Shown: positions 1 through 36,400 of the stretch, piece after piece
Layout of the letters: the number at the start of each line of letters is the position of its first letter
Numbering within the stretch: position 1 is the stretch's first letter
Assembly: GCA_945865815.1 (NCBI GenBank)
Contig: CAMBFR010000019.1
Location: 1 to 43,793, forward strand
Length of the DNA: 43,793 bases
Direction of reading: 5' to 3'
Source: Candidatus Sulfopaludibacter sp. SbA3
GTDB taxonomy: Bacteria > Acidobacteriota > Terriglobia > 20CM-2-55-15
Position numbers and translations under genes: made by a program
The notes under the pieces: generated by a model
Database searches by the model: none
Seen by the model: only the letters and a program-made list of their open reading frames with translations
Told to the model about the DNA's origin: nothing

Positions 1-17
1 CCCCCCCCCCCCCCCCC
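1..17. repeat. 17-base poly-C run at window edge
   Basis: The first 17 bases are all C. This is the longest homopolymer I noticed in the window and it sits exactly at the edge, so it may be a contig-end or assembly artefact rather than biology. A short T run (about 30-37) and a TATACT hexamer (44-49) that could serve as a -10 box follow before the first gene at 68, but no matching -35 box is visible. Confidence 0.6.
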
Positions 18-67
18 GGAATACCCCGATTTTTTTCTCCGGATATACTGTAGATGGCGTTCAAACC

Positions 68-706
68 ATGATCACCGCTACATTCTTCACATTCTATTTT
101 CTTCAGACGATCGCGCAGGAGCCGGCAGTCCCCCTGTTGTTGATTGCCGCGCCACCGGCCGCACAGACACAGACGGTGGGTACCGGCGTCGTGATCCTCG
201 ATGGCGCCATCAGCCGTGAGGGACGGCTCGTGGATGTCCGGGTCCTGCAGGGGACGTCGGACTTCATCGAACCGTCGCTGCGTGCTGTCCGGCAGTGGGA
301 GTTCGGACCTCCTGAAGCTGTTGAAACGTTCAGCCTGCAGGAGCGGATCAGCATCACTTTCCTTTATCGTGAGCGCGCCATTCTGGCCGAGCCCCCACAC
401 GATTTCAATATTGGAACTGTTTCCGCCGCCGGTGACCATCCTCCGCTGCCCACCACTGTTGTCGATCCGGGCTATCCGGCCAATTCGATAGGCCGCGGCT
501 CGGTCATCGTGCAAGGGCGGATCCGCATGGACGGAAGCGTGGAGCGCGTCACCGTGGTGCGCCCGGAGCCTTCGCTGACGGAGGCAACCGCGGCTGCGGT
601 CGAGCGTTGGAAGTTCGCGCCGGCATTGCGGGCAGGTATGCCGGCCTCGGGTTCTGCAATCGCAGTTGTGGTTTTTCAGCAGCCGGTGCTTTCCATTATT
701 CGATGA
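68..706 (+). CDS. TonB C-terminal-domain protein (double domain)
   Basis: This 212-residue exported or periplasmic protein has two successive regions resembling the TonB C-terminal fold, at about residues 37-100 and 140-208. Each shows the pattern 'G.V.(L/Q).G.I...G.(L/V)..V.V..G/P....SL..A...A(V)..W.F.P'. The second half, ending in RWKFAPALRAG and a hydrophobic beta strand, is the clearer match. The N-terminus is a short hydrophobic stretch (about residues 3-16) that could be a signal sequence or anchor. The proline-rich periplasm-spanning linker of a classical TonB is missing, so this is probably an accessory TonB-like protein rather than the main energy transducer. No good Shine-Dalgarno sequence precedes the ATG. 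Its stop codon overlaps the next gene's start (ATGA, 703-706), which implies translational coupling. Assignment to the TonB_C family is by pattern; the partner is unknown. Confidence 0.7.
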   Translation: MITATFFTFYFLQTIAQEPAVPLLLIAAPPAAQTQTVGTGVVILDGAISREGRLVDVRVLQGTSDFIEPSLRAVRQWEFGPPEAVETFSLQERISITFLYRERAILAEPPHDFNIGTVSAAGDHPPLPTTVVDPGYPANSIGRGSVIVQGRIRMDGSVERVTVVRPEPSLTEATAAAVERWKFAPALRAGMPASGSAIAVVVFQQPVLSIIR

Positions 707-1416
707 AGATTGTCACCTACAACATTCATAAAGCTCGCGGAATGGATGGCCGCGTCAGTATCAAGCGCATCGCCGACGTGCTGGGCGAGGTGGACGCCGA
801 TATCATTGCGCTTCAGGAAGTCTTCTCGAAATCCACGGGAAAGGAAGGACAGGCCGAGACGCTGGCGTCCATTCTGGATATGAACATCGCGTTCGGATGC
901 ACGCGTCATCAACGCGGACAGCCGTACGGAAACGCGATCCTCACGCGGTGGCCGATCCTGGAATGGCGCGACATGGAATTGTCATGGATGCATCGCGAAC
1001 GAAGAGGCTGTATTCGCGCCGATGTCAAAACGCCACGCGGCACCCTGCACATCTACAACATTCACATGGGAACCAGCTACTGGGAGAGACGACATCAGGT
1101 ACGAAGCTTTATGGCGTCCAAACAAATCCACGAACAACTGGAAGGCCCGCGAGTGCTGGTGGGCGACTTCAACGAATGGATACGCGGACTGACCACGCGG
1201 ATACTATCGGAGAAATTTGAAAGCCTGAACCTCCAGCTTCACGTCAAGAAACGGCGGAGCTATCCGGGCCTCCTGCCCATGCTGCACCTCGACCATATCT
1301 ACTTCGAACGGCCGCTTCATATTGAAAAAGCCGAACTGGTACGCACCCGCCTGTCTGCGATCGCTTCCGACCACCTGCCCCTCGCGGCCCGATTTGTCTG
1401 GCCAAACGATCAATAA
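703..1416 (+). CDS. endonuclease/exonuclease/phosphatase family protein
   Basis: A 237-residue protein of the EEP (DNase I-like) superfamily, whose members hydrolyse phosphodiester or phosphomonoester bonds with a divalent metal. The family motifs occur in order: N7 in TYNIHKARG, catalytic E39 in IALQE, N119/H121 in YNIHMG, D155 and N157 in VGDFNEW, D198 in LDHIY, and the D223-H224 pair in SDHLP. There is no signal peptide, so it is probably cytoplasmic. An open frame continues upstream to 607, but the ATG at 703 is preferred: it begins right at the conserved KIVTYNIH strand and overlaps the preceding stop codon as ATGA. The substrate cannot be read from sequence; nucleic acid, phospholipid and inositol phosphate are all used by relatives. 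The 3' end overlaps the convergent glutathione peroxidase gene by 7 bases. Confidence 0.85.
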   Translation: MKIVTYNIHKARGMDGRVSIKRIADVLGEVDADIIALQEVFSKSTGKEGQAETLASILDMNIAFGCTRHQRGQPYGNAILTRWPILEWRDMELSWMHRERRGCIRADVKTPRGTLHIYNIHMGTSYWERRHQVRSFMASKQIHEQLEGPRVLVGDFNEWIRGLTTRILSEKFESLNLQLHVKKRRSYPGLLPMLHLDHIYFERPLHIEKAELVRTRLSAIASDHLPLAARFVWPNDQ

Positions 1417-9261: not shown

Positions 9262-12200
9262 CTACCGCACACCCAGACTCGCGGCCCTCCCGGCATCCGT
9301 CAGGAAGCGCAGCGTTCCGGAGTACGCCTGGTCTGTAGAACCGTTGAACAGGATGAACTGCGTCGTAAAGCCGCCGCCATCGGCGAAATGGGGAAAGAAC
9401 TGTTCGCTGGAACCGGGAGCCTGGCTTTCGCTGATGGGTTGAGTCGTGGTCATCAGAAATTCATTGCGCTCGTTCCACCGGCCGCGGAGGCCCACGACGG
9501 AGATGCCTGCTGAGGAAGCGGTCGAGATCCTCAGCACTCCCTGAAACGGGCTGGCCAGGGTTGCGAATCCCGGGATATCGGTCAGGAACATCGAGACCTG
9601 GCCATTACCGGGAATCACTTTGGCCCCCGTCAGGCCGGTCGACGTGCCAGTCAGCGTGTGCAGTTCAAAGTTTACGGTGGCCGGCGCCGTCGACGCGTTC
9701 GCGATCGCGATTCCGGTTTGCGCCGATCCAACCTGGCCCGCAGTGAAACCAGCAGTGGCCTCGGCATAAAGTCTAAACGCCAATCCGCTTCGCAGCGAGG
9801 GCACGCCCGCCTCGGAAACCGTTATTCCACTTTGCTTGTACGTAAATATGATCACGCCGTCCGGCCTGCGCTGGGTGGCAGTTGGCACGAGGCGCACCGA
9901 ACCGGACTGCAGTGTTCCGGTACCGGCGGTCCGCAGTCTCTTTGCGCTTCGCGACGGAATGCTGTAGTTGAAGGTGGTCCCCGACACTCCGTCGACAGTC
10001 CTCGTCAAGACCTGGCCGGGCGTGGTATCGGTTCCCTTATCGTAAAACTGAATCGACCCGGTCAGGGTCGTGTCCCCCGGATTCACAAGTACAAACTGCG
10101 TTGTGAACCCATCTCCGTCGGCAAAATGCGGAAACAGGATGGAATCCGTACTGGGAGCTGCCAGAAGATCCGTGACGGGCAGGGTCGTCATCAGGAATTC
10201 CGATCTCTCATTGGTAAACCCGCGGAGCGCGACAACGGCGACCGGTACATTCGATGTAAAGCTGAAGCTTCCCTGAACGGCGCTGCCGCCATTGAACGGC
10301 GGTCCGCTGAGAAACTTCGCAATCTGAGCGTTCGCCCCGATGGGGGTAGTGCTGACGGCGGTGCTCACGCCGTTGGCATCCGTAAAGTAAAAGGTGATGG
10401 TGGCCGTCTGGCTGTTGGGATTCGCGATGGCCAGGCCCGTATCGGCGCCTCCGCCAACCTCCGCATAAATCCGGCCCGAAGTCAGAAGCGTTGATGCGGG
10501 AACCGCGGCCTCACTGACAAGCGTATTGTTCTGGCGAAGGCTGAAGATCGCAAGCCCCGAGGGAGTGGCCGTGCCGGCGCCGGGCAGAATTCGGGCGTAA
10601 CCGGCGCCGATCGCCGTCGAGGCGCCGAGACTCGAAAGCACAGAGCCTCCGCGGCTGACCAGAGTGTAGGGCGATGTGCTCGTCTCGGTGACCTTCGCCA
10701 CAAATGCGTCCTGCAGGCCCGGCCGGACCGCCGTAAAGGGCGCGGCGGTTGGGAAATTGCTGGAACCGGTCTGGCCGGCGATATACGCGTTACCGCTCGA
10801 GTCTATGGAGATTCCGTTGCCAAAATCGTTGCCGTTTCCGCCAAGAAACGACGAGTACACGACCGCCACCGTTGAATCGATCTTGGCGTAGAACGCGTCC
10901 GTCGTGAGGTCTGAGCCTCCGCCAAACGTGGTTTGAAGGGCATTCACGGCCGGGAAATTTGTCGAACTGGTATTGCCGGCAAGGTATGCGTTACCCGACG
11001 AATCGACGGCAATCGAATTGCCGGCTTCATCGCGATAGCCGCCAAGATATGTGGAAAACGCTAGCGTGCCGGCGGCATCCCACTTTGCCACAAATGCATC
11101 GGAACCGCCGGCGCTGGCCGCATAAATCGTGTTGGGGTTCGCGCTTTCGATTGCGATCGCGTTAATGCGAGCCGCATACAAGCTCGTTCCCGTCCATGCC
11201 GTTCCGGTGCTGCTTTTAAAAATGCGGCTGACGTTCGACTCCCCGATCGCCGCGTACATCGTGCCCGACACCGGGTCGGCCACCAGTGAAGTTACGAGGA
11301 TTCCAAAGGTCGAGCTGGTCAGGCCGCCGTTGGCGGAAAACCAGAATGAGCCTCCGTTCGTGCTTCGGAATATACCGACCGAGTTCGTCGCGGCATAAAC
11401 CGTATTCGGATTTCTTGGGTCGAGAACCAGCACGTTGACGTTCGGATCAAAGAGTCCCGTGCTGAAGGAAGCCCACGACGTCCCGCCATTGGTGGTCTTG
11501 TAAATACCGGCGGCCGTGCCGGCATAAATCGTCGCCGGACTTGTCGGATGGATCGCTATGGTACGGACGCTCAGGCTTGAAAGACCGTTGTTGATCGCCG
11601 TCCACGAGCCGCCGCCGTTGGTACTTCTGGAAATCCCGGCGCCATCGACAGCGGCGTAGACGGTCTCCGGCGTGAGCGGGTCGACCGCCAGCGCGGTAAT
11701 GAAACCGGTGGCTTGCCCTGTCACAGACCAGTTGGCGCCGCCGTCGGTAGACTTGTATACGCCCGTCGCCCGCGTTCCCACGTACAACGTAGCCGGCGCT
11801 GCCGGGTGTACAGCCAGCGCGTGAATGCGCGGATCGCTGATACCGGTCGAGGCAGCGCTCCAGTTCAATCCTCCATCGGTGCTCTTGAACAAACCTCCGG
11901 CAAGTTCATCGTCCGCTCCGGCATAAATCGTTGCCGGCGTGGTCGCAGCAACTGCAATTGCGTAAAGCGAGGTGCGCGTCATGCCGGCGTTGCCTGCGCT
12001 CCAGTTCCCTCCCGCGTCGGAGCTTTTGAACGACGGTCCGCCGCCGAAAGTACGCTGAGCCGCTCCGGTGGTCGTCGTGAAGTTGATGGAGGAGGTCTGG
12101 CCGGTCACGTAAGCCTGGCCTGTGGAATCGACGGCTATGGCATGACCCGCCTCATCTCTTGCGCCGCGGACAAACTGGGAATAGAGGGCTGCCGTACCTG

Positions 12201-13644
12201 CCGAGTTGAGCTTCGTCACGAAGACATCGGTGCCTGTCGTGGCTGAGGCCGGTGTGCTGCCGGTGATAAAGGCGCTGCCGGCGGAATCGACCGCAATTCC
12301 GCGAACCTCCGTTGCCCCACCGTCCACGCCGAAATAGGTCGAGTAGACAACCGACCCGGTCGGGCTGAATTTCGTAACGAACCCGCCGAGCACGCTGTTT
12401 GTCGAAAATGCGCCCGCTGTCGTCGTGAAATTGGTGGAAAGGGTTTTGCCCGCGACGTAAGCGTTACCGGTTGTGTCTATCGCGACGCCTCTCGCCTCGT
12501 CGTCACCGTTGCCGCCGAGGTATGTCGAGTACACGAGCGCCGATCCGGTGGAGTTCAATTTTGAAACAAAGGCGTCGGTGCAGGTTCCACCGGCCGATGT
12601 ATTGCACGTTGTCCGCAAGGCGCCGGTAGTTGTCGGCAGGTTCGAAGACTCGGTCATGCCGGCGATGACGACGTTACCTGACGAGTCCAGGGCAATGGCG
12701 CGCGCATCGTCGTCGCTGCTTCCTCCAAAATACGTCGAATAGACCAGCGCCGTACCGGCCGCGTTCAACTTCGTCACGAATGCGTCGCTGAATCCCAATT
12801 CCGGATCGGGCGTGCTGGCAGTGGCCTGATAAGGAGCCGCCGTCCTGAAATCGGTGGAGGTTGTGGAACCTGTCAGATAAACGTTTCCGGCGGCGTCCGT
12901 GGCGACACCCCGGCCCACTTCGTCGCCATCGGTTCCGCCGAGAAACGACGAATAGGTCAGGATCGGATCGATAACCAGGGTCTCCGCCGGGTCATATGCC
13001 CCGACATCGAACGTGACTTCATTATCCTCATCGATTCGATATCCGCCCTGAATCTCACGTCTCTGCCCGCCGTCATATTGGTAGAGAACCGGCTTCTGCT
13101 GAATGAGCTCGGAGCCATGCGAGCGCAGAACCAGATTCCCTCCGCCATCCAGGCTCAAATCGTCAGCGCCGTCAAAACCGAGAACAATGGATTTTGGATC
13201 TCCGCCGGGATGCACGACGAAGTCGTATTCGAGCTGCGACTGATTCCCGTAGTAGACGAGATCGACATTGTCATATACGCCCTGATATTTCACGCGCCCG
13301 TATGTGGGAACATCGGTAAGCCATCGGCTCGGCTCGGAACCCCGCAAATAGTGGACTTTGCCGGTCAGCCCCTGCTCTCCTTCGATATGCGGATCGAGAT
13401 TCGCATTCAGAAGCCGCGTACGAATGGAAATTGCCTTCTCTTCGTTACGCAAGGCGATTTCGTTGCCGCTTGCCGTGAGAAGAAGGCTGTATCCCGGCCC
13501 ACGCGCAACGAATCTCGCGTCTGCGTGAGCCTGCCCCCGGTTTTCCTCAAATGTAAGGGGAAGTTTTCCAAAATCGGGTTGAGGCGATGTGCAACCCGTC
13601 AAAACCAGAAGAACGCCGGCTACGGCAATTTTGAGGCTATTCAT
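9262..13644 (-). CDS. SBBP-repeat / Asp-box propeller lipoprotein with C-terminal tandem module
   Basis: A 1460-residue surface lipoprotein with lipobox LTGC (C18). Domains in order: residues about 22-230 are the conserved N-terminal region of SBBP proteins (FEENRGQ, probably DUF7948). Five SBBP repeats follow at about 231-535, each with 'STY.GG..DDEA.(G)IA.DS.GN.Y(V)AG.T'. Then come seven Asp-box-like motifs (STDGG.NW) at about 536-845, two further SBBP repeats at about 848-990, and the two-repeat module at 1015-1460. The Asp-box block sits exactly in the linker of the fifth SBBP repeat. The ATG at 13644 is chosen over the longer frame to 13683 because the signal peptide begins there; no ribosome-binding site is evident. 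A heptad-repeat hairpin lies just upstream. Binding or scaffolding at the cell surface is likely, and no enzyme motif is seen. Confidence 0.87.
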   Translation of the reverse strand: MNSLKIAVAGVLLVLTGCTSPQPDFGKLPLTFEENRGQAHADARFVARGPGYSLLLTASGNEIALRNEEKAISIRTRLLNANLDPHIEGEQGLTGKVHYLRGSEPSRWLTDVPTYGRVKYQGVYDNVDLVYYGNQSQLEYDFVVHPGGDPKSIVLGFDGADDLSLDGGGNLVLRSHGSELIQQKPVLYQYDGGQRREIQGGYRIDEDNEVTFDVGAYDPAETLVIDPILTYSSFLGGTDGDEVGRGVATDAAGNVYLTGSTTSTDFRTAAPYQATASTPDPELGFSDAFVTKLNAAGTALVYSTYFGGSSDDDARAIALDSSGNVVIAGMTESSNLPTTTGALRTTCNTSAGGTCTDAFVSKLNSTGSALVYSTYLGGNGDDEARGVAIDTTGNAYVAGKTLSTNFTTTAGAFSTNSVLGGFVTKFSPTGSVVYSTYFGVDGGATEVRGIAVDSAGSAFITGSTPASATTGTDVFVTKLNSAGTAALYSQFVRGARDEAGHAIAVDSTGQAYVTGQTSSINFTTTTGAAQRTFGGGPSFKSSDAGGNWSAGNAGMTRTSLYAIAVAATTPATIYAGADDELAGGLFKSTDGGLNWSAASTGISDPRIHALAVHPAAPATLYVGTRATGVYKSTDGGANWSVTGQATGFITALAVDPLTPETVYAAVDGAGISRSTNGGGSWTAINNGLSSLSVRTIAIHPTSPATIYAGTAAGIYKTTNGGTSWASFSTGLFDPNVNVLVLDPRNPNTVYAATNSVGIFRSTNGGSFWFSANGGLTSSTFGILVTSLVADPVSGTMYAAIGESNVSRIFKSSTGTAWTGTSLYAARINAIAIESANPNTIYAASAGGSDAFVAKWDAAGTLAFSTYLGGYRDEAGNSIAVDSSGNAYLAGNTSSTNFPAVNALQTTFGGGSDLTTDAFYAKIDSTVAVVYSSFLGGNGNDFGNGISIDSSGNAYIAGQTGSSNFPTAAPFTAVRPGLQDAFVAKVTETSTSPYTLVSRGGSVLSSLGASTAIGAGYARILPGAGTATPSGLAIFSLRQNNTLVSEAAVPASTLLTSGRIYAEVGGGADTGLAIANPNSQTATITFYFTDANGVSTAVSTTPIGANAQIAKFLSGPPFNGGSAVQGSFSFTSNVPVAVVALRGFTNERSEFLMTTLPVTDLLAAPSTDSILFPHFADGDGFTTQFVLVNPGDTTLTGSIQFYDKGTDTTPGQVLTRTVDGVSGTTFNYSIPSRSAKRLRTAGTGTLQSGSVRLVPTATQRRPDGVIIFTYKQSGITVSEAGVPSLRSGLAFRLYAEATAGFTAGQVGSAQTGIAIANASTAPATVNFELHTLTGTSTGLTGAKVIPGNGQVSMFLTDIPGFATLASPFQGVLRISTASSAGISVVGLRGRWNERNEFLMTTTQPISESQAPGSSEQFFPHFADGGGFTTQFILFNGSTDQAYSGTLRFLTDAGRAASLGVR
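9265..10602 (-). other. tandem surface module, copy in SBBP protein
   Basis: Residues 1015-1460 of the SBBP lipoprotein. Repeat 1 runs [87 protein letters not shown]. Repeat 2 runs SGSVRLVP, ITVSEAGVP, FRLYAEA, TGIAIANAS, NGQVSMFL, FQGVLRISTASS, WNERNEFLMTTT, FPHFADGGGFTTQF. It is closest to the copy in the NHL protein. It forms the extreme C-terminus, ending SLGVR. Confidence 0.85.
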
Positions 13645-13661
13645 AAAGGGGGTGTCCCAAA

Positions 13662-13760
13662 ATGAGAATTGAGAATTGAACAATGAACCATGAACAATTC
13701 TTAATGTTCATTGTTCATTGTTCATTGTTCATTGTTCATTGTTCATTGTTCAATTCTCAT
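13662..13760. repeat. palindromic element with six TTCATTG heptads
   Basis: The outer arms read ATGAGAATTGAGAATTGAAC from 13662 and, on the right, TTCAATTCTCAT ending at 13760. Between them, six perfect tandem copies of TTCATTG fill 13707-13748, matched on the left by CAATGAAC/ATGAACAATT units. The element fills the gap between the DUF1501 stop (13761) and the SBBP gene start. It shares its terminal sequence and heptad unit with the hairpin at 21219-21294, so both belong to one repeat family. Confidence 0.88.
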
Positions 13761-15116
13761 CTACCGGAAGAGTTCCACAATCGGTTCTCCGATGTAATTC
13801 CCGGTTATGGGTACGTACTCGAAACCACGTCCCAGCGGGTCGTCAGTACGCACGGTCTTGTAATTGATTCCCAGGGCCGAATAGATCGTCGCGGCGATAT
13901 CCTCTGAAAATACCGGCCTGCCCTGCGACCAGCCCGGATCCTCCACATACGCGCCGTCGGGAGTCGTCTTCCCCAGCGCCCGGCCGCCCCGTATTCCACC
14001 GCCGGCCACAAGCGCCGAGTGGACAAAGTAGTGATCGCGTCCCTGCCCGCCCGTAATGTTGCCGATGGTGCGGCCGAACTCGCCTTTCACAACAATGAGT
14101 GTTTCGTCCAGCTTGCTTCGGCCGTTCGAACCCGGCGTGATCGACAGGTCATAGAGAAGATATGCGAGCCCGATGTCCAATTGCCGGGCAGGTCCGAAGA
14201 TCCCGCCGGTGGGAGCGGCGTAGATATTCGTATGGTTATCCCAGCCGCCCAGATTGATCTGGATATACTTCGTGCCCAGATCCGAATTGATGATGTTCCG
14301 GGCCGTAATGCATGCGTTTCCGAACGCTGTATTGCCGTACCGGTCGCGATCCGCGGTAGTGAATCTGAATACTTCAGTTACAGCGGTGTCGTACATCATG
14401 CGGCGCGCGGAGGCATAAAAGTCCGCCATCTCTTCCAATTTCGTGCCGTACGGCGAGCCGGTGGCCCGCAGGGCCGCGTCGGCTGACAACAGCGTGTTAT
14501 AGCGGGTCGTGAAGGTGTTCTGCCCGTCGCTATTGGACAGATTCGCAAGTCCGCCGGGATTTGGAGTCACGTCGAACGGCGCATACTTTCCGGCAAAATA
14601 ACCCGCGCCGGCAAGCGAACTGCCGCCGTTCAGCGCGATGAAACCCGGCAGTTTCTGATCCGCCCGCCGTGTCTTCTCAGCCTCAAGCGCTATAACGGAT
14701 CCGATGTTGGGTGCGATCTTGCCGGTCGCGCTCGCCGGATTGCGTGCAATCTGTGTCCACGACTGGAGCAGCGAATGAACAAGCGCCGTCGCCTGACAAC
14801 TTCGGATCAACGAAAAGCGGTTGAGCGCCAGCTGCCCGGAAAGAGTCGGCAGCAGCCCATTGGGCCAGTCGATTCCGTTGATCGTCGAGGGCGTGAAGCT
14901 GGCCGGCGTCCAGGAGCCGACGCGCAGGTCGAACGTATCGATCTGGCTGGGCGCGCCGGGCAACATCACGAAAATGGCGTACTTCGCTGTGTTAAGGATC
15001 GTGGCTGGAGGGGTTGTGGTCGTCTGCGGAAACAATTCCATCGGAGACACCATGCATCCGGCAACCCCGGTCGCAGCTACTTTGAAGAACACACGTCGAT
15101 CGATGATTGATTGCAT
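13761..15116 (-). CDS. DUF1501 family protein with Tat signal
   Basis: A 451-residue DUF1501 protein. The N-terminus has a twin-arginine motif (DRRVFFK) followed by a short hydrophobic stretch and a lipobox-like VAGC (C21), so it is probably exported folded by the Tat system and may be lipidated. Family landmarks are an early conserved IFVMLPGAPSQIDTFD strand, INLGGWDNHTN, and the KGEFGRTIGN...GGQGRDHY block resembling sulfatase/alkaline-phosphatase-fold metal sites. DUF1501 genes commonly sit beside DUF1549/DUF1553 genes in Planctomycetota and Acidobacteriota; their shared function is not established. The ATG at 15116 is chosen because the signal peptide starts there. It lies five bases after the stop of the DUF1549 gene, so the pair is surely one transcript. 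Length is normal for the family. Confidence 0.9.
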   Translation of the reverse strand: MQSIIDRRVFFKVAATGVAGCMVSPMELFPQTTTTPPATILNTAKYAIFVMLPGAPSQIDTFDLRVGSWTPASFTPSTINGIDWPNGLLPTLSGQLALNRFSLIRSCQATALVHSLLQSWTQIARNPASATGKIAPNIGSVIALEAEKTRRADQKLPGFIALNGGSSLAGAGYFAGKYAPFDVTPNPGGLANLSNSDGQNTFTTRYNTLLSADAALRATGSPYGTKLEEMADFYASARRMMYDTAVTEVFRFTTADRDRYGNTAFGNACITARNIINSDLGTKYIQINLGGWDNHTNIYAAPTGGIFGPARQLDIGLAYLLYDLSITPGSNGRSKLDETLIVVKGEFGRTIGNITGGQGRDHYFVHSALVAGGGIRGGRALGKTTPDGAYVEDPGWSQGRPVFSEDIAATIYSALGINYKTVRTDDPLGRGFEYVPITGNYIGEPIVELFR

Positions 15117-15121
15117 ATTTT

Positions 15122-17101
15122 TCAGTAGTTGAAGATGAAATCCAGTTTGTTCAGCAGCACCCACTGCAGGTGCTGGGCCGCCGCCGTGTTACCGGACTGC
15201 TGAAAGCTCGGAGCAAACATTGCCAGTTCTTCCGCCGTGGCCTGTCTGGACAGCGTTGAAAGGAAGAGTTGGCGGATGATCGTCTGAGCATCCGATGTCT
15301 GCGCGAGCAACGTGGCGACCCGCGATCCCTGGTTCGACTGGTGAATCCGGCTCATGACGAAATTGTTATTCATCATGGTGAGCGCCTGCGCGAGCGTTCC
15401 ATCCGAACGCCGAAGATTGAGATCGCGATCCCCGCGGCCAAAGGCGTTCAGGAAACCTGCGCTGCCGCCGTTGCTCCGGGGTTCGCGCGGCTCGGGAAGC
15501 TGCATCGCCCACTGAACCGGGGGCAAAAATTCGAACTGGTAAGCCGGAGTCGGCATAATCCCCGTCGCCTTGACAACCGCGTCGTGGATCTCTTCCGCAT
15601 CGAGACGCCGCACGTACCGGCGCGCGTAATAAGGAACGTAGCTCACGTTCCACGTTCCCGGATAAACGGCCGAGAGCTGGTACGCGTTCGATTTCGCAAT
15701 AAGCCCCATCAGCGCGCGCAGATCATACCGATTGGTCTGGAACCACCTCGCCAGCGCATCCAGCAGTTGGGGATTCGTCGGCTGAAGCGTCCAACCCGCC
15801 GGTGGAGGACTGGCGGCGTCGAGGCGCGCGATATCGAAACTGTTCGAGGGCGACACAAATGCCTCGACCATGAACTTTTCCCAGATGTAGTTCACGATGG
15901 CCCGGGAGAACTGCAGGTCTCCCGTTATCTGGCGGGCTACGGCCTGACGCCGGCTTTCACCCGTCCCGATAGCCGTGCTGGCGCTGGTCGGAAATGGGTA
16001 CCTGGGAGTTACTCTCGTAACTCCGTTCACAGGCTGGCGCGGCGAACGGTTGCCGGTCGTCGTATTCAGCGTGTATTCCCCGGTTGCCGCGTCGCTCACG
16101 ATGTATTTCGAGCTGTTTGGATTTACGGATACGACCTGACGTTGATTCCGGAATCGCGCGAAGTAGGCGGAAAGCCCCCACATGTTTTGCCGGGTTTGCG
16201 TCGCTCCCCAGAGGTTCACTTCATCCAGATGGCGTGGTCCGTCGTGACACAAAAGGCAATCCACGGCATTCATTCCCAGGAACATGCCGGCGGAGTTCAC
16301 GGCATGCCCGTCGTAGATATCCTGTGCGGGGCCCATCGCCACATTGTTTCCCACAGGCCAGTTGACGGCGCCATTCACAAAGCTATCGCCCGTGGCGGCA
16401 ATGAGTTCCCGCGCGAACTGGTCGTATGGCTTATTTGTGCTGAGCGCATCCTTTATAAACAGGTAGAAGGCGTCGCGGCCCTGCGTAAAGCGAGTGATGG
16501 CCGCGGAAGTCGTATTCACTTTCAGCAGGTCGCCGAAAAACATCGTCCACTTGTCGATGAACTCGGGTGTTCCGATCAGTGAATCCACCAGCGCATCACG
16601 CTTGGAAGGACTCGTATTCGCGGCAAAGGATTCAACATCCGCTGCCGAAGGAATCCTGCCGGTAAGGTCCAGCATGACCCGGCGCATGTACTCTTCGTCG
16701 GATGCCAGTGGCGCGGAACGGATGCCCGCCGTGGCCATGCGGTTAAAGATGTGGTCATCAATGAAGTTCTTGCGCGGAACGGTCGCGGCATCGAGAGACG
16801 GACCCGGAGCCAGCAATGCAGACATGTACATTGCGAACTTCCCGGTGCTGTCCGACCGCATCGTGTGCCGCAGCTCCGTGGACAACTCATACTCTTCCGG
16901 ATTTCGCAGGTACGTGCAGTTGTCGGCGGTGACCTCGGCGGTGATCTGGATGACCGGTTCCTGCGCGGCTTCCGGCAATAGTTCCTCTGGCCCCACAAGC
17001 CCCGCGGCCACCGGATCCTGCTGGGCGGCCGTCACGAACAGCCCGGACGCCGACAAGAGGACGGCGGCCAGCGCTCCTGCGCGCCACGATTTCCTGATCA
17101 T
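15122..17101 (-). CDS. DUF1549/DUF1553 exported protein, copy 1, with CxxCH
   Basis: A 659-residue exported protein with a Sec-type signal peptide (about 1-27, ending VTAAQQ). DUF1549 lies in the first half, with RRVMLDLTGRIPSAADVESF followed by the region around KWTMFFGDL. DUF1553 lies in the second half and includes RQLFLSTLSRQATAEE near the C-terminus. A CLLCH motif (C282, C285, H286; bases 16244-16258) fits a covalent c-type haem site, which agrees with the cytochrome-like domains often attached to this family, but a single motif is not proof. The ATG at 17101 is chosen because a strong AAGGAGG ribosome-binding site lies 8-9 bases upstream. It is a close tandem paralogue of the next gene upstream, and DUF1501 follows after five bases. 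The family is thought to act at the cell surface; its reaction is unknown. Confidence 0.9.
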   Translation of the reverse strand: MIRKSWRAGALAAVLLSASGLFVTAAQQDPVAAGLVGPEELLPEAAQEPVIQITAEVTADNCTYLRNPEEYELSTELRHTMRSDSTGKFAMYMSALLAPGPSLDAATVPRKNFIDDHIFNRMATAGIRSAPLASDEEYMRRVMLDLTGRIPSAADVESFAANTSPSKRDALVDSLIGTPEFIDKWTMFFGDLLKVNTTSAAITRFTQGRDAFYLFIKDALSTNKPYDQFARELIAATGDSFVNGAVNWPVGNNVAMGPAQDIYDGHAVNSAGMFLGMNAVDCLLCHDGPRHLDEVNLWGATQTRQNMWGLSAYFARFRNQRQVVSVNPNSSKYIVSDAATGEYTLNTTTGNRSPRQPVNGVTRVTPRYPFPTSASTAIGTGESRRQAVARQITGDLQFSRAIVNYIWEKFMVEAFVSPSNSFDIARLDAASPPPAGWTLQPTNPQLLDALARWFQTNRYDLRALMGLIAKSNAYQLSAVYPGTWNVSYVPYYARRYVRRLDAEEIHDAVVKATGIMPTPAYQFEFLPPVQWAMQLPEPREPRSNGGSAGFLNAFGRGDRDLNLRRSDGTLAQALTMMNNNFVMSRIHQSNQGSRVATLLAQTSDAQTIIRQLFLSTLSRQATAEELAMFAPSFQQSGNTAAAQHLQWVLLNKLDFIFNY

Positions 17102-17128
17102 TACTGTGAACCTCCTTGTTGCCATGGT

Positions 17129-17157
17129 GTTATACACCAATGACAACAGGAGACCAA
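17129..17157 (-). promoter_or_regulatory. putative sigma-70-type promoter of DUF1549 copy 1
   Basis: Read on the minus strand: TTGGTC (17152-17157), a 17-base spacer, then TATAAC (17129-17134). The 17 bases TTATACACCAATGACAA (plus strand, 17130-17146) recur identically upstream of the second copy at 19183-19199, which supports a shared regulatory region. This is prediction from consensus only. Confidence 0.45.
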
Positions 17158-17183
17158 TTTGGTTTAGCGCTCTGAAACATAGG

Positions 17184-19148
17184 TCAATAGTTAAAGAGGA
17201 AATCCAGCCTGTTCAGCAGTACCCACTGCAGGTTTTCGGCCGCTACCCGGGCGCTGGACTGTTGGAACGCCGGACTGAGCGATGACAACTCCGCCGCAGT
17301 TGGCCGCCGCGAGAGTGTCGACAGGTAGAGTTGCGTGATGATCGTCGTGGCGTCCGAAGTTTGCGCCAGCAGCGTGGCGACACGCGAGCCCTGGTTGGCC
17401 TGATGGATGCGGCTCATCACAAACGGGTCGTTCATCAGCGCGAGCGCCTGGCTAAGAGTTCCGTCCGAGCGCCGCAGATTCAGGTCGCGATCGCCCCGGC
17501 CAAACGCGTTCAGAAAGGTTGCAACTGCTCCGCTTCTGCGGGGTTCGCGCGTATCGGGCAATTGCATCGCCCACTGGACGGAAGGCAGGGCATCCAGAGT
17601 GTAGGCCGGACTCGGCATGACGCCGGTAGCCTTCACGATCGCATCGTGAACCTCTTCGGCATCCATGCGGCGCACGAACCGCCGGGCGTAATAAGGCACG
17701 TAGCTTATGTTCCACGTACCTGGATAAGTCGCCGAAAGCTGATACGCATTCGATTTCGCAATAAGCCCCATCAGCGCTCGCAGGTCATACCGATTGCTCT
17801 GGAACCACTTCGCCAGGGCATCCAGCAGTTGGGGATTCGCCGGCTGCAGCGCCCAACCCGCCGGCGGAGGATTATTCGCGTCCAAACGGGCAAGATCGAA
17901 ACTGTTCGAGGGTGAAACAAGGGCCTCGACCATGAACTTTTCCCACACGTAGTTCACGGCTGCCCGCGCGAACTGCAGGTCGCCGGTAATCTGGCGGGCG
18001 ATTCCCTGCCGGTAGGTCTCGCCCGTGTTTATGCCGGTTCCCGTGGCAGTGCTGAACGGATTCTTCGGCGTAATGCGCGACACCCCGCTTACAGGCTGGC
18101 GTGGAGAACGATTTCCGGTGGTCGTGTTGAGCTGGTAGTCGCCGGTCGTAAGATCGGAAAGAATGTACTTGGCGAGAAACGGCATTGGAACGAGGACCTG
18201 CCGCTGCATTCGCGTCCGCGCAAAATATGCGGAGAGTCCCCACATGTTCTGCCGGGTCTGGGTAGCGCCCCAAAGATTGATCTCGTCGAGATGCCGGGGA
18301 CCGTCGTGGCACAGCAGGCAATCCACGGCGTTTATCCCCATGAACATGCCGGCCAGGTTTACCGACTGTCCGTCGTAAGTGTCCTGCGCGGGGCCCATCT
18401 GTATCTGGTTTCCCACAGGCCAGTTGGCTGCGCCGTTAACGAAGTTATCGCCCGTTGCCGAAATCAGCTCCCGCGCAATCTGGTCGTATGGTTTATTCGT
18501 GGAAATCGCATCCTTTACGAACGTGTAAAACGCGTCGCGGCCTTCAATGAACCGATTCACGTTCGTCGCCCCCGAATTCACCTTGAAAAGGTCGCCGAAA
18601 AACATTGTCCACTTGTCGACAAATTCCGGCGTTCCGATCAGTGAATCGACCAGTGCGTCACGCTTGGAAGCGCTCGTGTTTGCGAGAAACGATTCCACGT
18701 CGGTCTGTGACGGAATCCGGCCCGTCAGGTCGAGCGTCACGCGCCTCAGGTATTCTTCGTCGGATGCAAGCGGAGCCGAAGCAATTCCATCCGTGGCCAT
18801 TCGGCCGAAGATGTGGTCATCGATGAAGTTCTTTCTTTGAACGGTCGCGGCATCGAGAGTCCGCCCCTGATCCTCCGTCACCGAAAAGTACATGGCGACT
18901 TTACCGGTGATGTCGGACCGCATCATGTGCAGCAGCTCCGGGGACAGGTCAAACTCGTCCGGATTCCGCAGATACGTGCAATTATCGCCGGTAATCCCGA
19001 GGGGGACTTCCTGCAACTCCTCCGGGGCGGCGAATCCTGTGGCGATGGGGTCCTGCCGCGCCGCCGCAAGAAACAGTCCGGAAGCCGATACCAGGAGCGC
19101 CGCGACAATTCCGGCACTCCACCATTTGCTCCTCTTGCTCCTCGTCAC
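17184..19148 (-). CDS. DUF1549/DUF1553 exported protein, copy 2, with CxxCH
   Basis: A 654-residue paralogue of the next gene downstream, collinear over its full length. The signal peptide ends near LFLAAARQDP, DUF1549 contains RRVTLDLTGRIPSQTDVESF, and DUF1553 ends TQLYLSTLSRRPTAAEL. The CLLCH motif is conserved (C277, C280, H281). Both copies end in a run such as LNRLDFLFNY. The start is taken as GTG at 19148, not the longer frame to 19211, because GGAGG lies 7 bases upstream and the encoded N-terminus then aligns with copy 1. Only copy 1 is followed directly by DUF1501. The two proteins probably arose by tandem duplication and may handle related partners. Function beyond surface or periplasmic location is unknown. 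Confidence 0.9.
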   Translation of the reverse strand: MTRSKRSKWWSAGIVAALLVSASGLFLAAARQDPIATGFAAPEELQEVPLGITGDNCTYLRNPDEFDLSPELLHMMRSDITGKVAMYFSVTEDQGRTLDAATVQRKNFIDDHIFGRMATDGIASAPLASDEEYLRRVTLDLTGRIPSQTDVESFLANTSASKRDALVDSLIGTPEFVDKWTMFFGDLFKVNSGATNVNRFIEGRDAFYTFVKDAISTNKPYDQIARELISATGDNFVNGAANWPVGNQIQMGPAQDTYDGQSVNLAGMFMGINAVDCLLCHDGPRHLDEINLWGATQTRQNMWGLSAYFARTRMQRQVLVPMPFLAKYILSDLTTGDYQLNTTTGNRSPRQPVSGVSRITPKNPFSTATGTGINTGETYRQGIARQITGDLQFARAAVNYVWEKFMVEALVSPSNSFDLARLDANNPPPAGWALQPANPQLLDALAKWFQSNRYDLRALMGLIAKSNAYQLSATYPGTWNISYVPYYARRFVRRMDAEEVHDAIVKATGVMPSPAYTLDALPSVQWAMQLPDTREPRRSGAVATFLNAFGRGDRDLNLRRSDGTLSQALALMNDPFVMSRIHQANQGSRVATLLAQTSDATTIITQLYLSTLSRRPTAAELSSLSPAFQQSSARVAAENLQWVLLNRLDFLFNY

Positions 19149-19181
19149 AGCGAACCTCCGTATGACATCCGAATAAAGGGT

Positions 19182-19211
19182 CTTATACACCAATGACAAG
19201 GGAAGACCCAA
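19182..19211 (-). promoter_or_regulatory. putative promoter of DUF1549 copy 2
   Basis: On the minus strand: TTGGGT (19206-19211), 18 bases, then TATAAG (19182-19187). It shares an identical 17-base core with the region upstream of copy 1 (19183-19199). It lies in the gap between the AIM24-family stop (19232) and the GTG start. Confidence 0.4.
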
Positions 19212-29819: not shown

Positions 29820-32800
29820 TTAGAACACGTACTTCAGTGCCAACTGCATGATGCGCTCCTGAGCAGCGGAGAAGCCCAGAGGAGCTCCCTCAATTACAGG
29901 CAGGCTCTTGCCGAAGGTCTGGCTGGTAATAGTTGTCGCCGGATTGGGTGGATTGAAGTGGTTCGGCGCATTGAAGGCTTCCGCCCGGAACTCCAGCGTC
30001 TGGCCTTCACGGATCCGGAACTTCCTGGTCAGGCCCATATCGATTCGGATGTTGCCCGGCCCAAGGATATTCCTGCCGCCCATGTTCCCGTAGGTTCCGC
30101 TGGCCGGCCGTACGAACGCGGCAGGATTGAACCACTGATCGGTTGTCTTTGTCGCGGCGTAGGGCGAAGGTAGTACCTGATTGGGTCTTCGATCGTCTGT
30201 ACCGGATAACGCTGTATCGGCGCCGGACGCAATGGTCAGGTACGCGCCCGACGTGACTCGGACGATTCCCGAAATCTGCCAGCCGCTCAGCAGGTACCGT
30301 GTTGCGGTGTTCTCAAACTGCGGCAAGTCGTACACCGTCGACATATTGAAGTTATGCCGGCGATCCAATTCGGAGTTCCCGCGGTTCGCCCGCCGGCGGT
30401 CCTGGGTCTGTCCGCCACTGTTTTGAATGACATCCTGGTAACCGTCATCAATGGCATGCGACCAGGTGTAATTTCCCTGGACCGTGATGCCGTTCGAGCG
30501 CCGGCGCTGGATCTGAAGCACCATGGCGTTGTAGTTACGCGTGGCGCTATCGTCACCATAAATGATGTTGCCGTAGAACTGACCGACTGCCGCGTTCGCC
30601 AGACTCAACTCGCGGCGCGCATTCGTGTTGCCAGTTGTCGAGCAGGCTGCGCCCGGGTTCACGGTGTATGGAACTCTCACGCCGTTCAGGAAGCAGTTGC
30701 GATTTGCATCGCCGACGCCCGAAACGAAGATTGCCGGATTCTCTTCCCAGCGGTACATCATGTGAATGATGTTGTTGCCGATATAATTCGCGGCGAGCAG
30801 CCAGTTCGCTCCGAATTGCCTCTGGATGCTCAAATTCCACTGATTCATGTACGGCTTTTTCATCTCCCATGGAAAGACCGCGTAACGTCCGCCGAATGGG
30901 AACGAAGCGTTTTTATCCAGGGCAATCGGAAACGGGTTTCCGCCAGGATGAGTTGCCCACGGATCGTCAAAATTCGGACTGTTCACGACGATGGAGGCTC
31001 CCTTGGGCGATGCATCGCGGCGGCCGCCATACTGGTGCAGGTGCGGCGAGTCGAAAAAGATTCCGTACGCTGCGCGAACCGTCATCATGCCATTGCCTTG
31101 CGGATCCCACGCCAATCCCAGGCGCGGCGCCAGGCGAGGAAACATGTCGGTTCTGGCAAACGCATTCGTGTCTGGAATTCCGCCTTCTCCCTGGAAGTAA
31201 ATTCCTGCGGGAGCATTCGGGAAGATCCCGCTCTTAAGACCCTGGTCGAACCGCTCCCTGCTGAAGAATGCACCCTTCCCGGCGCTGTCGTACGGACCCA
31301 GAGAGGGTTCCCACCGGACGCCGGCGTTGACGGTCAGGTTGTTGCTGGCCTTCCACGTGTCCTGCAGATAGATCCCCAGATAATTCTGCCGGTAGTACTG
31401 GTTCGTGATTCGGCTCTGGGTGAATGTGTTGGCTCTTCCCAGCATCAGATCCGCCAGCGAGTTTCCGAGAACCGCGCCGTTGAAGCTGAACTGACCCACG
31501 GCCTGTGTCGCCGAGGTGTAGTTCATCATGTTATGGATGTGCTGCACTCCGAACCCGAGCTGGTGATTGCCCCGGATCAAACTGACATCGTCGGCCAACT
31601 GATAAACCGTCGAGTTTGTGAAGCCTTGCGAACTCATGTTCGCCTCGAACTGCCCGTCCACAACAAGCCGTACCTGCTTTGCGATGCCTTCCGGGTAGAA
31701 CGGCATCTTGACTCCGAGATCCTGGAAGTTGAACAGGGGGATCTTCAAAGCTTTGTCGTTGACGGTCCGGAGGATCGTTCCGCGGAAGGAACTCACCATG
31801 TTGGGACTGATCGAATAAGTGTCGCCAAGGACAAACGACTTCGCGTGCCGATAGTAGTCCGGCTCGCTGGCCGAAATCGAATTCTGGCCATCGTAGTCGG
31901 ATGGCTGGTCCAGGTAGCCCACTTCATAACGCCCGAACAACGAATGCTTCTCGGACTGTTGCCAGTCCATCCTGCCGACAATCAAATGCTCGTCCAGGTT
32001 TCTCTTTCGACCGAAACTCGTTTTCCCGCAGGGGTCCGTCGTCTGGGGCAGGTACTTGGCCGCCAGAACCATGGCCGCCGGCGAGTACTGGGCGGGACTG
32101 ATGCGGTTATTGACGAACGGAGCTCGCAACGTAATTGCGCCCGCGCCCTGGCACTGTGCGGATGCGAAGGTCGTCCAGTCGCCGGACAGCATTTGCGCCG
32201 TGGGAACGTAGGCGATGAGGGCTGAGGGTACGGACCGTTCGAGCGTTACCTGGTATCCGCCGAAGAAAAAGAGCTTATTGTTGACGACCGGTCCGCCGAC
32301 GACGCCGCCAAACTGGTTCTTCTTCAGCCCGTTCTTCCGCGACGCAAACGGGTTTTGAGCGTTGAAGATTTTATTGCGTACGAATTCAAAAAGGCTTCCA
32401 TGTATGTCGTTGGTGCCTGACTTCGTGATCACATTTACGGCGCCGGCCGAGTGGAAACCGTACTGCGCGGGTACAGCGCTGGTCTCGACCTTGAACTCCT
32501 GGATGGCGTCGGGGAATGGCAGCGGAAGAGACTGGTTCCCGTACGGATCGTTGTGAACGCCTCCGTCCAACATGAAATTCAGACCGTCGTTCGATCCGCC
32601 ACCGACGGAAATGATGTCCGTGGGATAGTTGCGCGGCGAGTTTTGCGCGCCGCCACCGACGGCAGCGCCGGAAAGAATGATCAACTCCGTTAATTGCCGT
32701 CCGCCGAGCGGCAGTTCGGTCACGCGAAGGTTATCGATTGTCTGACCGACTCCCGTGCTCCGCGTTTCGACCAACGCCGCGTCCGCCTGCACTTCCACTG

Positions 32801-33146
32801 TTTCGGAAAGAGCTCCGACCTCGAGGGCGACGTTTAACGTCGGATTGGCGCCGACTGTTAATACGATTCCGGTTTGCGCAAACGTACGAAATCCCGGCAA
32901 TGCCGCTTCCAGCCGGTAGGGACCCACAGGCAGGTTGGTGAGCGTGTAGGAACCGGTTTCATTGGACACGGTGTTGCGGGTGAGGCCCGTGCCGGTTTGC
33001 GTCACAGTAACCTCGACGCCAGGCAATACCGCGCCGCTGGCGTCGCTTACCGTCCCGTTTATTTGAGCCGTCGACTGCGCCCATGCGGCGCTACATGACA
33101 CGACGGCGAAGATCAATCCCACAAGTACTCTGATTCCCAGCATCAT
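29820..33146 (-). CDS. TonB-dependent receptor, Oar-like (receptor 1)
   Basis: A 1108-residue outer-membrane receptor. A signal peptide (to about residue 24, AWAQ) precedes a carboxypeptidase-regulatory-like domain (about 28-110: INGTVSDASGAVLPGVEVTV...SYTLTNLPVGPYRLEAALPGF). The plug domain follows (ETVEVQADAALVETRSTG..., then LPLGGRQLTELI), and a large beta-barrel ends in the aromatic C-terminus LALKYVF used for membrane insertion. These Oar-like receptors take up or secrete large molecules using TonB energy; the ligand is unknown. The ATG at 33146 has an AAGGAG ribosome-binding site 9 bases upstream; a second ATG follows immediately. It is a close relative of the receptor at 39555-42791. 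It is co-oriented with the NHL gene, which lies 269 bases upstream. Confidence 0.95.
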   Translation of the reverse strand: MMLGIRVLVGLIFAVVSCSAAWAQSTAQINGTVSDASGAVLPGVEVTVTQTGTGLTRNTVSNETGSYTLTNLPVGPYRLEAALPGFRTFAQTGIVLTVGANPTLNVALEVGALSETVEVQADAALVETRSTGVGQTIDNLRVTELPLGGRQLTELIILSGAAVGGGAQNSPRNYPTDIISVGGGSNDGLNFMLDGGVHNDPYGNQSLPLPFPDAIQEFKVETSAVPAQYGFHSAGAVNVITKSGTNDIHGSLFEFVRNKIFNAQNPFASRKNGLKKNQFGGVVGGPVVNNKLFFFGGYQVTLERSVPSALIAYVPTAQMLSGDWTTFASAQCQGAGAITLRAPFVNNRISPAQYSPAAMVLAAKYLPQTTDPCGKTSFGRKRNLDEHLIVGRMDWQQSEKHSLFGRYEVGYLDQPSDYDGQNSISASEPDYYRHAKSFVLGDTYSISPNMVSSFRGTILRTVNDKALKIPLFNFQDLGVKMPFYPEGIAKQVRLVVDGQFEANMSSQGFTNSTVYQLADDVSLIRGNHQLGFGVQHIHNMMNYTSATQAVGQFSFNGAVLGNSLADLMLGRANTFTQSRITNQYYRQNYLGIYLQDTWKASNNLTVNAGVRWEPSLGPYDSAGKGAFFSRERFDQGLKSGIFPNAPAGIYFQGEGGIPDTNAFARTDMFPRLAPRLGLAWDPQGNGMMTVRAAYGIFFDSPHLHQYGGRRDASPKGASIVVNSPNFDDPWATHPGGNPFPIALDKNASFPFGGRYAVFPWEMKKPYMNQWNLSIQRQFGANWLLAANYIGNNIIHMMYRWEENPAIFVSGVGDANRNCFLNGVRVPYTVNPGAACSTTGNTNARRELSLANAAVGQFYGNIIYGDDSATRNYNAMVLQIQRRRSNGITVQGNYTWSHAIDDGYQDVIQNSGGQTQDRRRANRGNSELDRRHNFNMSTVYDLPQFENTATRYLLSGWQISGIVRVTSGAYLTIASGADTALSGTDDRRPNQVLPSPYAATKTTDQWFNPAAFVRPASGTYGNMGGRNILGPGNIRIDMGLTRKFRIREGQTLEFRAEAFNAPNHFNPPNPATTITSQTFGKSLPVIEGAPLGFSAAQERIMQLALKYVF

Positions 33147-33415: not shown

Positions 33416-36400
33416 CTACTCCGCACGGCAGGTGACAACACGCTCTACCCTGGACTCGCTGTAGTTGCGCTCTCTGTAAGTCACCCTAACGGTCACCCGC
33501 TCGGTTTCATTGTTCACATAGAGGCTCCTCCAGACGATCTGCCGGCTCCAGGTAGCTGACGAAGGGTCGTTAGGACCACGGCCAAAGCCGCCGTACTCCG
33601 ACAGAGGCCACGACGACGTGTAGGGAGAACTGCTAAAGACATGTACGTACTGAGTGTCTAACGCTGCTATGAAATTTGTGTACACGGGCCCAGAGACGGT
33701 ACCCGAAGCTGTCACCGTGAACTCCCATGTGCTGTTCGACCCAGCCAGATTCACGGAGACCAACCTGCCGGTACAGGTTGCGGATTGGATGGTAGCTTCC
33801 AGCGGCGGCGCCACGTTCAGCGTTACCGAGACTGTCATGTCTTTGGTCATCGTCAACCGGCAGTTGCCCGTTTGACCCGCGCAGTCACCGCCCCAGCTCG
33901 TGAAACCATCGTTACCAAGAAGAACCACTGATAATTCGACTGGGGTCCCTTCGTCGAAGGTCGCATCACAGGTCGAGGGGCAAGTGATGGCGGCGGGGTT
34001 CGAACGGATGTAACTGTTGGAAGCGCCTCCAGTCTTGCTGGCTCTGAGCGTGAACCGTCTTTTTGCGGTAAACGTCGCGGTCACCGATTTATCCGCATCC
34101 ACTGCAACCATGCAGACGCCGGTGCCGGTACAGGGACCGGACCATCCGTCGAACACCGATCCGGTCGCTGCCACTGCGGTGAGGGTGACTTGGCTGTCTT
34201 TCGTAAAGGCAAGGAAGCAAGTGCTTCCGCAATTGATTCCGGCCGGAGTTGATGTAACCGTGCCCGTACCGGTCCCTGCTCTCGTAACAGTCAGGACTTT
34301 CTGACCACCCGACGGGTCAGAATTGCCGGTGGAAATGAGTTTGGAATTGCTGCTCACTTCGGGATTGCCACATACAGCCCATACTCGTGCCGCGCCCGAG
34401 CCAGCGCCGATTCGGACAATGCCCACATTGGGGTTAGCAATGATGACAACTTCGCTGCCAACGGGATTGGAGAACAAATACCTGCAGACCGCCGCGCGCA
34501 CCACGCTTCCAGTCGCGTCCAGAGGGACCGCCGTAAATCTTATTTCCGTACCGGCTTTCAGAAATCCGGTCAGGCCCGGACCAATCAGTCGTACCGAAAC
34601 GACAGGGTTGGCAGCCGGCGGCGGGTTTGGTTGTGGCGGCTCCAGAGGTATGTCGATGGTTGTGCCGCCCGGTGGCACTGTGACCTTTACCGGTTTTGGG
34701 TCGAACTTTGGACACGGCGCCGATGCTTTATAGTCTCCGGGCGGCACCATCAATGTTGCCTTGCTGTTTTGAATATCTGCGGTATATGCAAGATCCAGTT
34801 TGCCGACCCGTATCAGCTCCAGAGAGCTTGTCGGGCAAGGGTTTGGATCCGCCGGCTCAATAAAGTTTGCTCCGAAAGGCACGGCCTCTGCGATGTCGAT
34901 GCCCCGGGGTTTGCAGTTGTAAAGCTTCAACGTTTCAACGCCGCGGACTTTAAAAGTGGTCACGGATACGGGCTGACCTAAATTGGCACACCCCCAGATT
35001 GTGCCCAGATCGGTTCCAAGGGATGAGACGTCTATCAGAAGCTCTACAGCTTTTTGAGGTGCCGTTCCGCTTGTTGCCCACAGCATGAAGGCCTTAACGG
35101 GAAGCCCTTCGGCAGTGTCAATGAGGAGTTCTGTTAATGCCTCGGTTGTACTCACTTCGCGCGTTTCAGGTGTTCCAAGCTTATCGGTAAATTTTCCGAG
35201 AGGGACGCCGCTGCTATTCAATCTCTTCGCAACCAATACAGCGAAGTCCTTTGCGTTCATGACAGTATCAATTTTGTCGATAACACCCTGTCCAGGTATC
35301 GGATAGGTTTTGGTCTCGATGACCTTATCGGTCATCTTATTCAACCCGATCTCAATAGGTCCCGTAGCCGTTTCAGCCCTGGAGCTGATACCGTCCGATG
35401 CAACCGAGTTGCTCAACGGCGAGGCAGGCCGTGCCTCGAGAATCACAAATCGTGGTGGATACGCGTTGGCGGGATCAATGGCGAGAAGCATCCCGTGCCC
35501 ACTCTTCTTGTCGATTACCAGACCGACTGAAAGTAGATGCATTGGTGTTCCCGTGGGCTGATCCACGAAACGAAACGTCATATTCGTTCCATTCACATTC
35601 AGTGTGACGATGCCGTCTGCGTCTGTAATCCCCGCGGCGCTCAGACGGTCAGACTGGGTTTCAACGCTGATTCCAAGTCCGTTTCCGGACGGAGCCATGA
35701 AACGCAGGCTTCCGGACGACGTTGCCGTACCGCTTCCGGCATAAAGTACAAACTCACTGGTAAAGCCACCAGCATCGGCAAGGTGCGGGAAAACGAGCTC
35801 CGCCGCCGATGCGGGCACGCTTTCGTCTGTGGGCGCCGTAGTGGCGATCAAAAACTCCTGGCGCTCGTTATAGCGTGCCCGTAATCCAACAATGGAAATG
35901 CCGTCCGGTGAAGCTGTAGACACTCGCAGTATTCCCTGGAAAAGAGGCGGCACAAGCTCCAAGCCTGAAATTTGATTCAGAAACAACGCCGTTTGGCCGT
36001 TCGCATCAAGCGTAGTGGACCCCGACAATCCCGTTGCAACACCGTCGAGTGTCAGCAGTTCGAAATTGACTGTGGCGCGGCTTGCTGAAAAATTTGCGAT
36101 CGCCAGGCCGGTTTGTGTCGAACCCGCCTGAAAGCTATCGAAGTTGCCGCCCGTTTCGGCATAAACACGAAATGCTCTCGACGCCGGTACCGGCAGAACG
36201 CCAGCCTCCGTTACCGTGATGCCGCCCGTACGCAATGCGAACACAGCAACTCCTGCGGGAGTTATTGTCCCAGCGGCGGGGATTACCCTGACAAAACTCG
36301 CCTGGATGGCGCCGGCGGTTCCCGCAGAGACAAGACGGCGCGAGCTGCGCGCGGGTATCGAATAATCGTATATGCCCGGCTCCCGGGCGACACTAATGCC

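Follow-up and report, generated by a model that had tools for sequence, protein, structure and literature searches.

In the 43,793 nucleotides from Candidatus Sulfopaludibacter sp. SbA3 analysed here (the window), one gene encodes a protein in which a seven-bladed SBBP propeller very probably holds, in a loop of its fifth unit, a complete and separately closed seven-bladed Asp-box propeller, as judged chiefly from a predicted structure. Propellers are thought to grow by amplification of blades inside a single ring. That one propeller might lie within a loop of another had been proposed from the reading of the DNA, and the predicted model supports that interpretation.

The open frame (9262-13683, minus strand) covers about 1460 residues, with the ATG at 13644 as the likeliest start, and the features of the protein (P0001) are collected in Table 1. 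An LTGC motif, judged by eye in the translation, lies behind a hydrophobic N-terminal stretch and is taken by us to be a putative lipobox; the product is predicted from its sequence to be an exported lipoprotein. Pfam finds SBBP (PF06739) at 171 bits against a cut-off of 20.5 over seven stretches, and our own Asp-box profile places seven units, all within residues 541-848. In the translation the fifth SBBP unit runs to ...AAQRTFGGG, the Asp-box block follows and the protein then continues with AGGSDAFVAKWDAAGT. The original prediction had the fifth repeat running to FGGG and the pattern resuming at GGSDAFVAKWD, and this agrees with the profile, which stops at position 51 and picks up again, with SDAFVAKWD, at 43-64 of 65. 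The insert, some 310 residues long with its seven Asp-box units, was likewise recovered, at approximately 11107-12036 where 11110-12052 had been given; the motif written as STDGG.NW does occur seven times, the first copy reading SSDAGGNW and the seventh being degenerate (SSTGTAW). The count of seven SBBP repeats also holds, with the proposed division into five plus two refined to four whole, one interrupted and two whole units. The C-terminal region (9304-10668), in which no Pfam family scored above cut-off, contains two diverged copies (38.7% identity, E 1e-33) of a so far unnamed module, roughly 210 residues in length.

Table 1. Features of the nested-propeller gene in the window, with the basis of each assignment.
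Feature	Position	Strand	Basis or remark
Nested-propeller lipoprotein CDS (predicted)	9262..13644	-	ATG at 13644; alternative TTG start at 13683 possible
Putative signal peptide with presumed lipobox LTGC	13591..13644	-	by eye
DUF7948 (PF25778)	12961..13551	-	Pfam, 205.5 bits, cut-off 27
SBBP unit 1	12748..12960	-	own SBBP profile, residues 231-301
SBBP unit 2	12538..12747	-	own SBBP profile, residues 302-371
SBBP unit 3	12352..12537	-	own SBBP profile, residues 372-433
SBBP unit 4	12190..12351	-	own SBBP profile, residues 434-487
SBBP unit 5, first three strands	12037..12186	-	residues 489-538, profile positions 2-51 of 65; model
Inserted Asp-box propeller (predicted)	11107..12036	-	seven profile units; model; 3b7f superposes on model 313-613
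Asp-box units 1-4	12030-11911, 11892-11761, 11760-11635, 11634-11509	-	Asp-box profile
Asp-box units 5-7	11505-11374, 11373-11245, 11223-11107	-	Asp-box profile
SBBP unit 5, fourth strand (SDAFVAKWDAAGT)	11065..11103	-	own SBBP profile resumes at residues 841-862, profile positions 43-64; model strand E627-633
SBBP unit 6	10864..11064	-	own SBBP profile, residues 863-927
SBBP unit 7	10672..10863	-	own SBBP profile, residues 930-992
C-terminal region, two diverged module copies	9304..10668	-	sequence comparison

Elsewhere in the window, a 1679-residue protein (33416-38455) combines propeller repeats of the NHL/teneurin type with a putative Ig domain and a Flg_new_2 domain, and its gene is flanked by genes for two outer-membrane barrel proteins (29820-33146 and 39555-42791). 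Two adjacent genes at 15122-19211 each encode DUF1549 and DUF1553 (PSCyt2, PSD1), and a DUF1501 gene (13761-15164) adjoins this pair.

The AlphaFold2 model of residues 225-999 (pLDDT 90.9, pTM 0.86) contains a host ring of 28 strands, seven times four, in which unit 5 contributes E264-270, E276-283 and E289-295 ahead of the insert and E627-633 (DAFVAKW) behind it, the insert thus breaking SBBP blade 5 between its third and fourth strands. The CylK propeller 7fh6 superposes on model positions 7..767 (Z 47.1, 385 aligned residues, 2.0 A, chain 249..654, 25% identity) and the designed seven-bladed propeller 7big on 6..766 (279 of 286 residues, 1.7 A); since each of these single rings superposes across the insert, blades from both sides of it would share one ring, and the seven SBBP blades of the host are predicted to close into a single ring. 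On the inserted part, 313..613, the Asp-box propeller 3b7f can be superposed (Z 32.1, 295 aligned residues, 2.5 A, 22% identity), and a Foldseek search with the model returned CylK entries in the top five rows, followed by GH74 enzymes. Structure prediction and superposition therefore gave the two separate propellers that had been anticipated, with the inserted one emerging from a host loop, and a single continuous structure was not seen in the model. The alignment behind it comprised 38 rows, namely the window region, five proteins with inserts in blade 5 (L058, L059, L060, L062 and L068), 24 uninterrupted SBBP propellers that were gapped across nearly the whole insert, and eight lone inserts from other proteins; as the uninterrupted and insert-only rows favour a two-ring answer, a second model matters.

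This second model was made for L064 (129-4616). Both L064 and L066 (411-4682), which come from two Pyrinomonadaceae bins, have one Asp-box block in blade 2 and another in blade 6. Within each protein the pair of blocks is 33 and 35% identical, and the equivalent blocks of L064 and L066 share 62 and 63%. The model (1101 residues; pLDDT 79.7, pTM 0.68) is of moderate confidence; of 16 uninterrupted rows its alignment took just the contiguous middle parts, none of which bridges an insert. CylK and the model superpose over 339-358 residues at 1.9-2.4 A, across the first insert, the model range ending at 1033 in four of the five rows, and 3b7f superposes on 116..415; confidence is lower for the seventh host blade, and the second insert has no listed match of its own. 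Two other alignments for L064 were dropped, one because it aligned uninterrupted homologues with the second insert and the other because it placed parts of them inside the first.

The original prediction regarded the architecture as unusual, which it is, but it is not unique, as it recurs in Acidobacteriota and in two proteins of Verrucomicrobiota. At least 27 proteins carrying at least 29 Asp-box inserts in SBBP propellers were identified, a biased sample since the relatives came from searches seeded with the nested protein. Inserts were found in blade 2 (L064, L066, L107, L204), blade 3 (L063, L065, L200, L202, L203, L205, L206), blade 4 (L067, L199), blade 5 (the window protein, its orthologues L058-L061 and L055, and also L062, L068 and L201) and blade 6 (L064, L066, L069, L081, L198, L207, L208). 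The point of entry is the same loop throughout: the host profile ends at position 39-54 of 65 in all 27 inserts measured (25 proteins, without L055 and L061), and the first Asp-box unit follows after 1-11 residues in 25 of the 27, with an overlap of six residues in one and a gap of 46 in L208. Inserts often start at an Asp-box unit's F-K-S-x-D-G-G and stop behind its Y-A-G-T. With the insert removed, seven full blades remained in 20 of 24 nested hosts tested, and four (L107, L067, L081, L069) have a short or split SBBP unit. Asp-box units are weak or missing in the inserts of L069, L081, L206, L207 and L208, and the fragments L014, L019, L054 and L061 show the insert and the downstream part only. 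In L069, from Verrucomicrobiota (ORF at 3721), about 141 residues inside the insert (902-1043) are without assignment, and a third level of nesting is possible there. The ORF at 5134 on the minus strand of L206 encodes 4207 residues; a nested propeller lies near the beginning, and some 3000 residues match neither the SBBP nor the Asp-box repeat.

Closer to the window protein, a family search of 11 genomes, from which 19 regions were taken, showed the interrupted fifth blade in five other genomes (L051-L055), L055 being cut at a contig end and L054, the same gene as L061, being spread over two open frames; L058 (G007) is a same-genus relative from a Candidatus Sulfopaludibacter bin. Homologues with an uninterrupted fifth repeat, which had been expected, do exist: by the first profile seven uninterrupted SBBP units are present in six family proteins (L039-L043 and L047), among them L043, a paralogue within the window's own genome, and by a second profile L039 has one unit in two pieces and L044 is also complete. 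Among the best 80 loci of 518 relatives in a scan of the species-genome collection, at least 61 ORFs have seven uninterrupted units. A left-junction profile built from 12 junctions gave at least 12 junction-spanning matches in at least nine of 297 Acidobacteriota genomes, a lower bound with at most 13 candidates scored per genome. Of the nine, the window's genome and the L162 genome had themselves fed the profile. In Verrucomicrobiota two of 288 genomes matched at threshold, one of them, the centre genome and itself a contributor to the profile, with a match spanning the junction, and the second (G527) with a match to the Asp-box part alone.

One alternative explanation is that the Asp-box propeller is a separate domain standing in line between two SBBP propellers, the apparent resumption of the pattern being coincidental. 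Proteins with several propellers in line do exist, as in L086, where seven SBBP units have FG-GAP repeats further on. Against this, the SBBP units of the window protein reach seven only when those before and behind the insert are added together, unit 5 has its last strand behind the insert, and the host residues flanking the insert superpose on a single CylK ring; moreover, an Asp-box block between complete SBBP propellers, named beforehand as an outcome that would count against nesting, was the order in none of the 27 distinct proteins from the seeded searches (57 ORFs with at least two SBBP and at least three Asp-box units). We consider this arrangement most improbable. A hybrid or enlarged single propeller with mixed SBBP and Asp-box blades is also very unlikely, even though Quistgaard and Thirup report Asp-boxes between other propeller repeats as "putative hybrid propellers" (PMC2716378), since both blocks have the unit numbers of closed rings (seven and seven) and each superposes on a single ring of its own; SBBP does not occur in the main text of that paper, so that the SBBP case falls outside its treatment there.

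Such a junction could also be an artefact of assembly or reading frame in a single metagenome bin, and most of the sequences do come from metagenome bins, with L061/L054 lying in two frames. The junction is, however, the same in five other family genomes and in unrelated records, and the GC3 of the insert (0.708) is practically that of SBBP units 1-4 (0.705), a match that also gives no compositional sign of recent acquisition; we therefore find an artefact scarcely credible. The preferred reading remains that of a closed Asp-box ring nested in a closed SBBP ring.

The guest is not always of the Asp-box type. In a Gracilibacillus isolate (L105:3727-7359, on a contig of 62.8 kb) seven FG-GAP_3 stretches lie inside blade 7 of a protein with seven SBBP units, entering between profile positions 35 and 37, in the same general loop but slightly earlier than most Asp-box inserts. 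In searches with the FG-GAP junction of L105, no second nested FG-GAP ring was present among the matches of 299 Bacillota genomes, nor was one nested in an SBBP ring in the nine regions read among the matches listed for 297 Acidobacteriota genomes, and L105 thus stands as a single case in the regions searched.

How the insert came to occupy five different blades can be explained in two ways, as it must have been inserted several times or have moved between blades. In a tree of 29 rows (27 inserts and two free Asp-box propellers), in which 15 of 26 inner branches are open, the blade label changes 12 times, against a least possible number of 5 and a shuffled mean of 18.0; the label is clustered, and the position of the insert is thus partly inherited. 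This would fit one ancient insertion in one SBBP lineage, followed by a change of blade through gain, loss or exchange of blades within the host gene. Host trees of 65 rows (24 nested and 41 plain, without L055, L061 and L208), which have weak backbones, require 12 label changes for the whole host and 14 for DUF7948 alone. These numbers give no evidence of repeated insertion, since a single clade of nested hosts is not rejected: in AU tests the tree constrained to that clade beat the free quick tree by 42.6 log-units for the whole host (p 0.945) and by 30.2 without two long rows (p 0.875), and was 11.3 worse for DUF7948 alone (p 0.329).

Blade similarity points the other way. Over 110 pairs, blades of the same number scored a mean of 118.4 compared with 115.3 under numbering relative to the insert, and the best register was absolute in 26, insert-relative in 7 and another in 77, a weak signal given that, among 820 plain pairs, register 0 came out best in no more than 301. 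Gain or loss of whole blades at the ends would favour an insert-relative match, so that the better fit of absolute numbering disfavours rotation of the ring. Interrupted blades are, in addition, no more alike to each other (106.2) than to blades of the same number (111.3), and the low identity of the paired inserts within L064 and L066 also speaks against a single origin. A single ancient insertion is accordingly a possibility to which we give roughly one chance in three, and we lean towards a module that was inserted repeatedly, or passed from loop to loop, in preference to ring rotation.

Several known proteins resemble the window protein in part. The insert resembles 3b7f from Ralstonia eutropha (Asp-box 'type 1') in being a ring of Asp-box blades, although 3b7f stands alone whereas the window's ring sits in a blade of another propeller. 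The GH74 xyloglucanases ('type 3'), which are sequence matches of the insert, also have two rings per chain, but both are Asp-box rings and in succession, whereas those of the window protein belong to different families and are nested. In the Vibrio cholerae sialidase ('type 2') blades are interrupted by an inserted domain and still form one ring, as in the host, except that there another domain interrupts the Asp-box ring while here the Asp-box ring is the insert. DDB1, with its WD40-like BPA, BPB and BPC, is a precedent for an arrangement of propellers other than plain succession; unlike the window protein it is eukaryotic and WD40-like throughout, and is not known to show recurrent insertion in different blades. 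In DDB1, BPA and BPC form a double propeller (PMC3938054). Among solved structures, the relative that came closest to the SBBP host ring is the propeller of CylK (7fh6, 7ron), which shares with it seven blades, the superposition at 2.0 A and long internal top-face loops, described as unusually long in CylK (PMC8916777). In contrast to the window protein, CylK has no propeller in a loop, its N-terminus is a calcium-binding domain where Pfam assigns DUF7948, and it has an alkylating active site with catalytic Arg105 and Tyr473.

The insert itself fits an Asp-box propeller in its repeated motif (approximately S-x-D/N-x-G-x-x-W), its seven profile units and the superposition of 3b7f, while Pfam BNR (PF02012) scores 10.1, below the cut-off of 27. 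There is also a Sortilin-Vps10 (PF15902) match inside the block (49.3 bits, cut-off 33), the best stretch of which covers 107 of 446 positions; sortilin is a ten-bladed ring (PMC2716378), and because the insert has seven units by profile and model it was not classed as a Vps10 domain. Asp-box rings have been described as single, interrupted and tandem, and Asp-box repeats have been proposed to form hybrid rings together with those of the kelch, PQQ and Reg_prop types (Quistgaard and Thirup, 2009; PMC2716378). In a paper on blade amplification (PMC9218822) none of the terms looked for occurs, and the literature searched, which lay mostly outside subscription journals, yielded no description of propeller-in-propeller nesting of this kind.

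We place the insertion site in the long loop that joins strands three and four of unit 5, by analogy loop b-c of the usual propeller lettering. In sequence and model alike, blades from either side of the insert complete the host ring, and the insert consists of a whole number of Asp-box units, seven, with short linkers. A ring of whole repeats would bring its two ends together, such that it could be spliced into an exposed loop while the host ring stays closed. The SBBP b-c loop may therefore act as a socket, as the ends of a closed ring adjoin and the host ring need not open; it appears equivalent to the long internal top-face loops of CylK. For the inserted ring the most likely role would be that of an accessory binding head, offering a second interaction face for carbohydrate or protein, a more tentative suggestion made by analogy with the usual function of Asp-box propellers, whose top face is the functional one (PMC2716378).

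The presence of the same plug in other blades, or of two at once, suggests a reusable socket in the SBBP family. That the b-c loop is a general socket, into which Asp-box and at least once FG-GAP rings have been plugged separately in blades 2-7, sometimes two to a host, to give combinatorial nested multi-ring exported proteins, is a wider proposal on which we regard the odds as even. Nesting, if true, would mean that a protein with mixed propeller repeats does not necessarily form a hybrid ring, and could account for some mixed-repeat annotations. It would also suggest a natural insertion site for protein engineering, and the recurrent nesting of closed rings in a fixed loop of varying blades would constitute a second, modular route to propeller proteins.
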